DNA from: a virus
IMG/VR virus record: IMGVR_UViG_3300003476_000001
Coordinates: 1 to 23,797 of that record
DNA: 23,797 nucleotides
Direction: 5' to 3' (one strand)
Within the stretch, counting starts at the first letter, position 1. The number at the start of each line of letters is the position of its first letter. Made by a program: the position numbers and the translations under genes. The notes beneath the pieces were generated by a model. It made no database searches. It was not told the origin of the DNA and saw only the letters and a list, made by a program, of their open reading frames with translations. Below, piece by piece: positions 14,914 through 16,701 of this stretch.

Positions 14914-15228
14914 CTAAAATATACTCGTTATACAATCCCATTCTTCTATTCTTTGTTTTATTTTTTTTTGTAAATATTGCTCTGTTCCATATTTTTCAAT
15001 AAATGCTTTTTTACCTAAATGAACTGATATTTTACCTGTCCTATGGTGTGAAGCACATAATGGAATAATATCAAAATGCGAGGGTCTTAGACCCATTCCT
15101 GTGTGGTTTCTGATATGATGTATCTCGGCTGGTGAAACTCTACCATCTATCTCACAAGCTATACACCCATGATTAGCGACTTTGTTCATGTATTCTCTCT
15201 CTGCTTTATTTGGTCTTTTCTTTGCCAT
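14914..15228 (-). CDS. Ref-like HNH nuclease
   Basis: A 104-residue protein. The ATG at 15228 is preferred over an upstream TTG at 15237. Residues show C22-x2-C25, EIHHIR (H37, H38), GLRPSHFDIIPLC (C58), H61-H62, H70 and KYGTEQYL. The C-x-x-C, E-[IV]-H-H, H-F, P-L-C-x-x-H-H and G-T-E pattern matches the HNH/zinc domain of P1 Ref, a RecA-dependent nuclease that cuts DNA at displacement loops. P1 Ref carries a long basic N-terminal arm. Here only a short lysine-rich one is present, so RecA dependence is uncertain. Overlaps the upstream gene by 43 bases. Confidence 0.85.
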   Translation of the reverse strand: MAKKRPNKAEREYMNKVANHGCIACEIDGRVSPAEIHHIRNHTGMGLRPSHFDIIPLCASHHRTGKISVHLGKKAFIEKYGTEQYLQKKIKQRIEEWDCITSIF

Positions 15229-15503
15229 AATACACAATCCCTACCATATTTTGATTTAGTTCTTTGGCCTGAGTCTATTACTAAATCTATTTTTTTAAGT
15301 TCATTTATTCTAGCACATATACTTGATAAAGGTTGTCCAAGTGCATCTGCTATTTGTTCGTTTGAATATAACCTTTCTAATAAAAGATTATAAACTTCTT
15401 CTCGTAATGTTAGTTTATTATTTTTTTGTGTCCAAGATTTGACACTTGTATCTGACGATTTTTGATATGCTTTGTAATCGCTAAACAAATCTAATTGGCT
15501 CAT
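15186..15503 (-). CDS. Winged-helix regulator/replication-associated protein
   Basis: A 105-residue protein starting MSQLDLFSDYKAYQKSS. Residues about 35-85 form a winged helix: LREEVYNLLLERLYSNEQIA, DALGQPLSSICARINELKKI and a wing LVIDSGQRTKSKYGRDC. This looks like the small HTH proteins next to recombination nucleases in many phages. It is the first gene of the leftward operon, preceded by CGAGAGAGGTAGATAG and by a hairpin whose loop can pair with that site. It may act on its own promoter region or in replication. Confidence 0.75.
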   Translation of the reverse strand: MSQLDLFSDYKAYQKSSDTSVKSWTQKNNKLTLREEVYNLLLERLYSNEQIADALGQPLSSICARINELKKIDLVIDSGQRTKSKYGRDCVLWQRKDQIKQRENT

Positions 15504-15525
15504 CTATCTACCTCTCTCGTTTGAC

Positions 15526-15556
15526 AAGGGGTTCAAGAGAGAGCAAAGAACCCCTT
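15526..15556 (-). promoter_or_regulatory. Hairpin with anti-SD loop in leftward leader
   Basis: AAGGGGTTC and GAACCCCTT form a perfect 9-pair stem with a 13-base loop. In leftward RNA the loop reads UUUGCUCUCUCUU, and the ribosome binding site of the 15186-15503 gene downstream is GAGAGAGG. CUCUCUC in the loop is fully complementary to GAGAGAG, so a pseudoknot that hides the site is possible. No T-run follows in either direction, so it is not an intrinsic terminator. Confidence 0.65.
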
Positions 15557-15565
15557 ATCTGTTAT

Positions 15566-15590
15566 GCTTACTTAATTCGGAACAGTAAGC
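15566..15590. repeat. Inverted repeat, candidate operator 1
   Basis: GCTTACT (15566-15572) and AGTAAGC (15584-15590) are perfect 7-base arms around 11 bases. Arm spacing gives a centre-to-centre distance near two helical turns, as expected for a dimeric phage repressor. Half-site style A[TA]GCTT recurs in candidate operator 2. Confidence 0.55.
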
Positions 15591-15627: not shown

Positions 15628-15643
15628 ATGCTTTTTCAAGCAT
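15628..15643. repeat. Inverted repeat, candidate operator 2
   Basis: ATGCTT (15628-15633) and AAGCAT (15638-15643) flank four bases. In leftward RNA it would be a 6-pair stem closed by a GAAA tetraloop. As DNA it carries the same ATGCTT half site as operator 1 and lies near a leftward TATAAT hexamer (minus strand, within 15618-15623). Confidence 0.5.
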
Positions 15644-15660: not shown

Positions 15661-15697
15661 ACTAAATTATTTTTCATACTACTGATTCGATTACTAC

Positions 15698-15725
15698 TTG
15701 ATTTGTTTTTAAATTGCAAAATAAT
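15698..15725 (+). promoter_or_regulatory. Candidate rightward early promoter
   Basis: TTGATT (15698-15703), 16 bases, then AATAAT (15720-15725) match the -35/-10 consensus at four and five positions. Transcription would start near 15732, giving a leader of about 70 bases before 15801 or about 110 before the strong ribosome binding site at 15841. AT-richness makes chance matches common here. Confidence 0.4.
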
Positions 15726-15800
15726 AGTTTGAGTTGAAATATTTTACAAAAAAGCTAGGTTTTAAGCCATAAAATAAGGGGTTGCAATACAACTTGAAAT

Positions 15801-16145
15801 ATGGTCATAATCAGGAATATGTTAAATAAAAAAAATAAACAAGGAGAGAGCATAATCAAAACAGATATAAATAATAAGATAATTAAAGTTGGTTCTTTAG
15901 TTATAATAGATAGTGGTATGGGTAGAGAGTACCCTGACTATTGTGGTGGAAGAAAAGGTGTTGTTGTAAAAATAGGAAACAAATATTGTAAGGTAGAATG
16001 TTCTGCTAGAAATGGTGCAATCAATGTTAAGTTTAAAAATCTTGAAATAATTAGTAGAGATAGATTTGATAGCTTTGATAGTAATTGGTTAAATTTCTTT
16101 TATATTAGAAATGCAAATATATTAACTAACAAGGAGAGAGCATGA
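15801..16145 (+). CDS. Small KOW/Tudor-like barrel protein, first rightward gene
   Basis: The frame is open from ATG 15801 (114 residues), with another ATG at 15819. The core KVGSLVIIDSGMGREYPDYC followed by GGRKGVVVKIGNKYCKVE is a small beta barrel of the KOW/Tudor style, with G-x-x-G-x-V-V-x-I-x-x-x-x-x-x-V. Neither ATG has a good ribosome binding site. A perfect AAGGAGAGAG lies inside the frame at 15841-15850, and the codon at the normal start distance is ATA (15852), in frame. Start may therefore be 15801, 15819 or the ATA itself (97 residues). It overlaps the next gene as ATGA. Function is unknown. Confidence 0.65.
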   Translation: MVIIRNMLNKKNKQGESIIKTDINNKIIKVGSLVIIDSGMGREYPDYCGGRKGVVVKIGNKYCKVECSARNGAINVKFKNLEIISRDRFDSFDSNWLNFFYIRNANILTNKERA

Positions 16146-16411
16146 AAAAAGGTAATTATAATTGGACACCAAGATATAAAGTTGGTTCAATGTATAAATC
16201 TAAATTAAATAACAAAAGATATTACATTACAGGGTCAGGTTCTAAAACTTGTGCTTTAAGTGTAAGGATTTTAGAAAAAGGTGTTCTTTTAGATTTAAGC
16301 CCAGATGCTTTTTATAAACAAAAAGAAAATAAAAATATATTTTATGGTCTTATGCAAAAAGATTTAGATAAATTAAATTTAGTAGAAATAGAGGAGAGAA
16401 CAAATGGTTAA
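16142..16411 (+). CDS. Small early protein, likely paralogue of preceding gene
   Basis: An 89-residue basic protein starting MKKGNYNWTPRYKVGSMYKS, with RYYITGSGSKTCALSVRILE in the middle. AAGGAGAGAGC before the ATG is identical to the site in front of the in-frame ATA of the previous gene. Both genes then carry KVGS 12-13 codons after that start, encoded by the same AAAGTTGGTTC (15885-15895 and 16178-16188). This suggests a tandem duplication that has diverged. It is probably a small beta barrel. No family is recognised. Confidence 0.68.
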   Translation: MKKGNYNWTPRYKVGSMYKSKLNNKRYYITGSGSKTCALSVRILEKGVLLDLSPDAFYKQKENKNIFYGLMQKDLDKLNLVEIEERTNG

Positions 16412-16676
16412 AGTAATATTAAAAACACCATCATTTGATTTGATGGAAGATGTTAAAAAAAGATTTGGTGTGGAGTTTCACCCAAATACTCCTATCATAA
16501 AGATAGGAGAAAAACTAAAGGAGATAGGTTATGTTAAAGACATTACCCAAGCTTCAACAGCGATACGACAAACAGATAATGATAGAAAAGAATCTGTTGG
16601 AAAAGTTGAGGAAGCTACAAGAAAAGAAAAAACAGTTGGCGTTCAGATTGCACCAAGTAAAGCATCACCCAACTAA
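16404..16676 (+). CDS. Small early protein of unknown function
   Basis: A 90-residue protein starting MVKVILKTPSFDLMEDVKKR. Residues up to about 60 look folded (FGVEFHPNTPIIKIGEKLKE, then VKDITQASTAIRQ, possibly a helix-turn-helix-like helical pair), followed by a charged, disordered end. GAGGAGAGAAC precedes the ATG, which overlaps the previous gene by eight bases. DNA binding is possible but not shown. Confidence 0.65.
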   Translation: MVKVILKTPSFDLMEDVKKRFGVEFHPNTPIIKIGEKLKEIGYVKDITQASTAIRQTDNDRKESVGKVEEATRKEKTVGVQIAPSKASPN

Positions 16677-16701
16677 TTATTTGTAGAGAGAGATATAAGA
16701 T

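Follow-up and report, generated by a model that had tools for sequence, protein, structure and literature searches.

Few examples are documented in which RNA folding at the start of a phage operon controls translation. In the leader of the plasmid genes repZ/repA of the IncI/IncB type, formation of a pseudoknot activates translation and is controlled by an antisense RNA. In preQ1-I and similar translational riboswitches, the loop or tail of a leader hairpin joins the Shine-Dalgarno (SD) sequence and hides the ribosome site, much as we propose below (PMC10622847, PMC11625349). Among viruses, the leader pseudoknot of gene 32 in phages T4, T2 and RB69 is, according to a review, perhaps the sole example of such autoregulation (PMC3014915). 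How pelagiphages, whose SAR11 hosts are the most abundant bacteria of the sea, time their gene expression is poorly understood. Our combined findings suggest, with a probability of roughly 0.7, that in the group named HTVC111P-type pelagiphages (PMC10504331) a structured leader RNA controls translation of the first gene of the leftward operon (replication and late genes) through an anti-SD in a hairpin loop.

The stretch of DNA analyzed here (23.8 kb, hereafter the window) is a pelagiphage fragment, kin of Pelagibacter phages HTVC026P, HTVC111P and HTVC202P. Its layout is divergent, with rightward early genes from position 15801 and a leftward operon from 15503 that encodes, in this order, a 105-aa winged-helix-like protein, a Ref-like nuclease, and replication and structural proteins. 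A preliminary description of the window had named the first two genes a regulator and a Ref-like nuclease. The nuclease (14914-15228, minus strand) was upheld, with a match to the RecA-dependent nucleases (PF16786, RecA_dep_nuc, E 3e-11) and 81% identity to the HNH nuclease of HTVC026P, but the small winged-helix-like protein (15186-15503, minus strand, 105 aa) gave only a weak match, below the cut-off (Pfam PF0610-like_N, E 0.049). The two genes overlap by 43 nt, which makes translational coupling plausible. Most leftward genes have little SD, and several of the early genes at 15842-16700 share an unusual SD dialect, AAGGAGAGAGC.

Translation of the first leftward gene starts at an AUG (15503-15501) preceded by the spacer UAGAUAG and the SD GAGAGAGG (15511-15518, minus strand). 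Four nucleotides farther upstream (AAAC, 15522-15519) ends the main hairpin (15523-15559, minus strand). The perfect stem of 9 pairs with a 13-base loop noted in the preliminary description was found again as the core of a 12-pair stem that includes one U.G (15559-15548 with 15534-15523). In the leftward RNA its 5′ arm reads GAUAAGGGGUUC, its loop UUUGCUCUCUCUU (15547-15535) and its 3′ arm GAACCCCUUGUC. The loop carries the anti-SD CUCUCUC (15537-15543, minus strand), which matches GAGAGAG in the SD (15518-15512) over 7 Watson-Crick pairs, as previously claimed. The leftward RNA folds at -34.8 kcal/mol (z of -3.2 versus shuffles), compared to a z of only -1.2 for the rightward strand. No second 9-bp hairpin with a loop of the 13-nt type was found elsewhere in the window, and a shuffled window contained on average 0.17 such hairpins with 5 or more G-C pairs, and 0.18 with a 7-nt match between loop and downstream sequence. 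However, the window contains 10 copies of GAGAGAG versus 1.9 expected, an excess that points to a ribosome-site habit of the phage, and the complementarity within the window is thus weak evidence on its own. It is the comparison with relatives, rather than the window itself, that decides whether the element is real.

Relatives were found by protein similarity and one motif search, and their upstream sequences were then read. Stem pairs were counted outwards from the loop; a plain MAFFT alignment misplaced the hairpin arms. Stem covariation, a check put forward in the preliminary description, came out in favor of the hairpin: 6 of the 12 pairs differ on both sides between the window and L005, and none on one side, with an identical 13-nt loop. 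Similarly, L253 and L265 are separated by 3 double and no single changes around an identical 25-nt loop, and between groups the stem sequence is almost wholly different with pairing maintained. This pattern shows that the main hairpin is an RNA hairpin in an mRNA leader, conserved through compensatory changes. It also makes it very hard to credit that the inverted repeat, located as it is in a divergent promoter region, is a DNA feature such as a palindromic operator, or a transcription terminator: the stem turns over freely with pairing kept, G.U included, and the loop is conserved but the arms are not. Nor does it resemble an intrinsic terminator, a G+C-rich hairpin with a U run behind it; no U run lies behind the stem on either strand, the hairpin is followed by AAACGAGAG, and it was absent from the terminator scan. 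A background scan of unrelated contigs gave 2 matches to the element in 1.37 million strand-bases. A search with an exact-stem pattern returned many stretches, which outside the window's relatives had no link to this gene and were set aside as chance inverted repeats.

The preliminary description had tied the hairpin to the first leftward gene. This did not hold, as the same element precedes other, unrelated first genes in the cultured isolates HTVC202P and HTVC111P, and other first genes again in L277, L287/L295, L288, L290/L299 and L298; it thus belongs to the operon leader and not to one gene. In L018 and L019, upstream of 5001, an insertion of ~75 nt with its own hairpin (ATCTTTAAG/CTTAAAGAT, 13-nt loop) separates the element from the gene, whose SD is now AAAAGGAGATGAT. 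Compared with the window, HTVC026P (L002) has its block of early genes turned around with respect to the late ones, so that the same first gene comes in line behind the early genes, and the leader element with its main hairpin is absent from the region upstream of that gene. Relatives that keep the SD and not the complementary loop, which the preliminary description had held to speak against an interaction, do occur among genomes with this in-line order (HTVC026P and L272, both with a purine SD), but there the whole leader is missing and the gene lies behind the early genes.

Loop and SD vary in step among the leader types. CUCUCUC is found with GAGAGAG, UUCUCUC with GAGAGAA (HTVC202P, L270 and L290), ACUCUCUC with GAGAGAG (L287), UCUCCC with GGAGA (L250-L265 and L276) and GCUCUC with GAGAGC (L285), and the commonest change in the SD, from GAGAGA to GGGAGA, turns a U-A into a U.G and so preserves the pair. 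Where the loop is without an anti-SD, one is present in the 5′ flank (L022, L262, L250 and L306). Swapping partners among 18 types, with loops only, weakened the pairing from -8.7 to -7.5 kcal/mol (p = 0.002). With flank anti-SDs included, whose segments were chosen by eye, the pairing weakened from -10.3 to -8.7 kcal/mol among 17 types (p = 5e-6). In neither test are the types independent, as a tree was used to show; they are connected through descent and recombination. When the comparison was confined to types with a CUCUC loop, the loop-SD p value was 0.045, so that most of the power lies in contrasts from type to type. A second sample had some overlap with the first; in it, loop and SD were complementary in 43 of 46 distinct hairpins; L368 and L371 kept the loop with another SD, and L377 had neither. 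The co-conservation of loop and SD expected in the preliminary description is thereby borne out, and these comparisons indicate that the anti-SD is complementary to its own SD and changes with it, more weakly so inside the CUCUC types. The same covariation bears on a different role for the loop, that of aiding translation as a place where the 30S subunit or ribosomal protein S1 docks, with complementarity to the SD as a by-product. Ribosomal protein S1 prefers pyrimidines, and the loop is pyrimidine-rich and near the SD. Nonetheless we find this role most improbable, since loops change as SDs do (UCUCCC with GGAGA, UUCUCUC with GAGAGAA) and the flank types retain an anti-SD in place of a pyrimidine loop.

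The preliminary description considered two partners for the loop, the SD and the early sites. Most relatives carry a further one, lost in the window: an upstream copy of the SD, which reads AGAGAG, or GAGAAAUGAUU, UGUUGAGAAAA or AUAGAGAUAAUU in other types, and which in the CUCUC types lies directly 5′ of a small hairpin, often with a GNRA loop. In a swapping test that used a fixed window of sequence, copy and anti-SD scored -9.9 with their own partners and -8.2 when swapped, and none of 200,000 permutations did as well; within the CUCUC-loop types alone p was 0.067. Both SD and copy are purine-rich, so that much of this complementarity would come cheaply. In L377 copy, loop and SD are all lost together with the remaining leader intact, and in the window, L005, L006 and L007 the copy alone is lost. 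Overall, the sequences show that loop, SD and, in relatives, the SD copy are kept complementary. The copy could even be the loop's real partner, the two forming a tertiary contact that stabilizes the leader; the SD, which resembles the copy, would then match the loop incidentally. Its presence in 28 of 29 further leaders would fit, as would the retention of copy and loop, with a different SD, in L248, L368 and L371, and linkers of 45-80 nt would make pairing of loop and copy sterically easy. We consider this rather unlikely, however, because the window, L005, L006 and L007 are without the copy, yet their loop and SD stayed unchanged while the stem turned over. In L248 (1-154) a leader of the CUCUC type precedes a gene from the other protein clade and no longer matches the SD, which suggests that leaders move by recombination.

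Pairing of the loop in trans with the GAGAGAG sites of the rightward early genes had been the second proposal of the preliminary description. In this scheme the late leader would pair with the ribosome sites of the early mRNAs and shut them down. Within the window's own subgroup it could operate, as the loop UUUGCUCUCUCUU matches the early sites GAGAGAGCAAAUG over 9-13 nt (13/13 in L007) and its own SD over a shorter 7-8 nt. It is not general, however: in other genomes the early sites are variable and their match to the loop does not exceed that of its own SD, and the loops of HTVC202P and L270 follow their own SD. As the explanation of the loop, action in trans therefore seems to us improbable.

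The rest of the leader begins at a probable promoter. The candidate (15691-15719, minus strand) consists of TTGCAA (15719-15714), 17 nt and TAGTAA (15696-15691), with the start of the leftward transcript expected near 15684. In relatives it is clear (TTGCAA-17-TATAAA in L270), with a conserved AAATCA...GAATCA block, but in the window it is weak, and a consensus promoter scan of the window did not pick up the candidate at 15719-15691; from the relatives we infer transcription through the hairpin. A box, AAAAAGCTAGGTTTTA (leftward AACCTAGCTTTTT; window 15740-15790), is kept between the divergent promoters in nearly all genomes, HTVC026P included. The rightward early leader (15774-15798 in the window, before gp04 in HTVC026P) has an inverted repeat of its own, AAGGGTTGTAATTCAACCTT in HTVC026P, and ATAAGGGGTT at 15774-15798 in the window is an exact inverted copy of hairpin positions 15549-15558.

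Downstream of the promoter, an inverted repeat with GUAUGAAAA as its 5′ strand (15671-15679, minus strand) may form a helix, P1. Its GAUAUGA...UCAUAUC is kept in relatives and nearly invariant, so that the helix is a candidate and the repeat could instead be a DNA site. A small hairpin with a GNRA-type tetraloop, AUGCUU-GAAA-AAGCAU (15628-15643, minus strand), has a stem that changes with pairing kept and is found in many relatives with GAAA, GUAA or GCAA loops, placed after the SD copy. Helix P2 (15601-15627, minus strand), read by eye, pairs AAAGUA (15627-15622) with UACUUU (15606-15601) and encloses the 3′ strand of P1, UUUUCAUAUC (15616-15607); in relatives, again by eye, the AAGUA...UACUU helix changes in sequence and keeps its pairing. 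An optional hairpin, GCUUAC...GUAAGC (15566-15590, minus strand), is missing from many relatives. A leader peptide starting AUGUUAAGAGAG was also considered and dropped, as HTVC202P, HTVC111P and L155 lose the AUG yet keep AGAGAG.

The pairing of loop and SD had been described as a pseudoknot acting on the first gene. The complementarity is kept among relatives, as shown above, but the pseudoknot is sterically too tight with the 12-bp stem intact: on geometric grounds a linker of ~7 nt is required to span 12 A-form pairs, and the window has 4 (2-7 nt across types). The linker is thus too short in most types unless 1-4 basal pairs open, and an H-type pseudoknot, in which the linker spans stem 1, would form only with these pairs open; they often include a U.G. 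With basal pairs opened, a net gain of about -5 kcal/mol is predicted, not counting a pseudoknot penalty, which it may be too small to cover. The energies would then be so closely balanced that binding of a factor could decide the pairing.

Under the reading that we favor, control by the loop anti-SD, the promoter near 15719-15691 would drive transcription of the leader, and pairing of the anti-SD with the SD would block ribosome binding and lower translation. In most relatives SD copy, anti-SD and SD would make up a three-part switch, in which the upstream copy beside the GNRA hairpin takes the loop and frees the SD. In the window, where the copy is lost, the remaining choice would be an SD blocked by the loop or free. 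Control of the first gene would probably extend, through the overlap, to the Ref-like nuclease, and some signal, be it a phage protein, a ligand or the stage of infection, would shift the balance. A more elaborate version, in which P1, P2 and the GNRA hairpin form the sensing domain of a viral riboswitch-like RNA that decides whether SD copy or SD takes the anti-SD loop, and so times translation of the operon, is tentative and in our judgement somewhat doubtful. Because natural variants exist that have lost the copy, the SD, or copy, loop and SD together, simple reporters would suffice to put the mechanism to a direct test.

We found no description of this leader element in the literature. In Rfam 15 the window leader had no match at or near a gathering score (best E 3.8-4.9), and the HTVC202P leader scored 23.3 bits against 100 for SpF14, 17.5 against 49.9 for freshwater-2 and 16.4 against 50 for SpR10, weak matches that we rejected because the folds are not homologous. 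As far as we found, the leader is a new and widespread RNA. It shows strong covariation, its anti-SD changes along with the SD, and a copy of the SD would compete for the anti-SD. By analogy it is expected to work like SD-hiding leaders such as preQ1-I, yet it falls outside that family: the pelagiphage leader has a much longer stem 1, a loop anti-SD of 6-10 nt and an upstream SD copy, lacks any sequence or Rfam match, and precedes a phage operon rather than queuosine genes. As in the IncI/IncB repZ/repA leader, a hairpin loop would pair beside the ribosome site and decide translation, but here the proposed loop-SD pairing blocks, and no antisense RNA is known for the pelagiphage leader. Gene 32 of T4, T2 and RB69 differs in that its pseudoknot, 67 nt upstream, serves to nucleate the binding of gp32 and is not itself paired to the SD, but as a phage mRNA leader pseudoknot involved in translation control it is the nearest viral precedent (PMC3014915).
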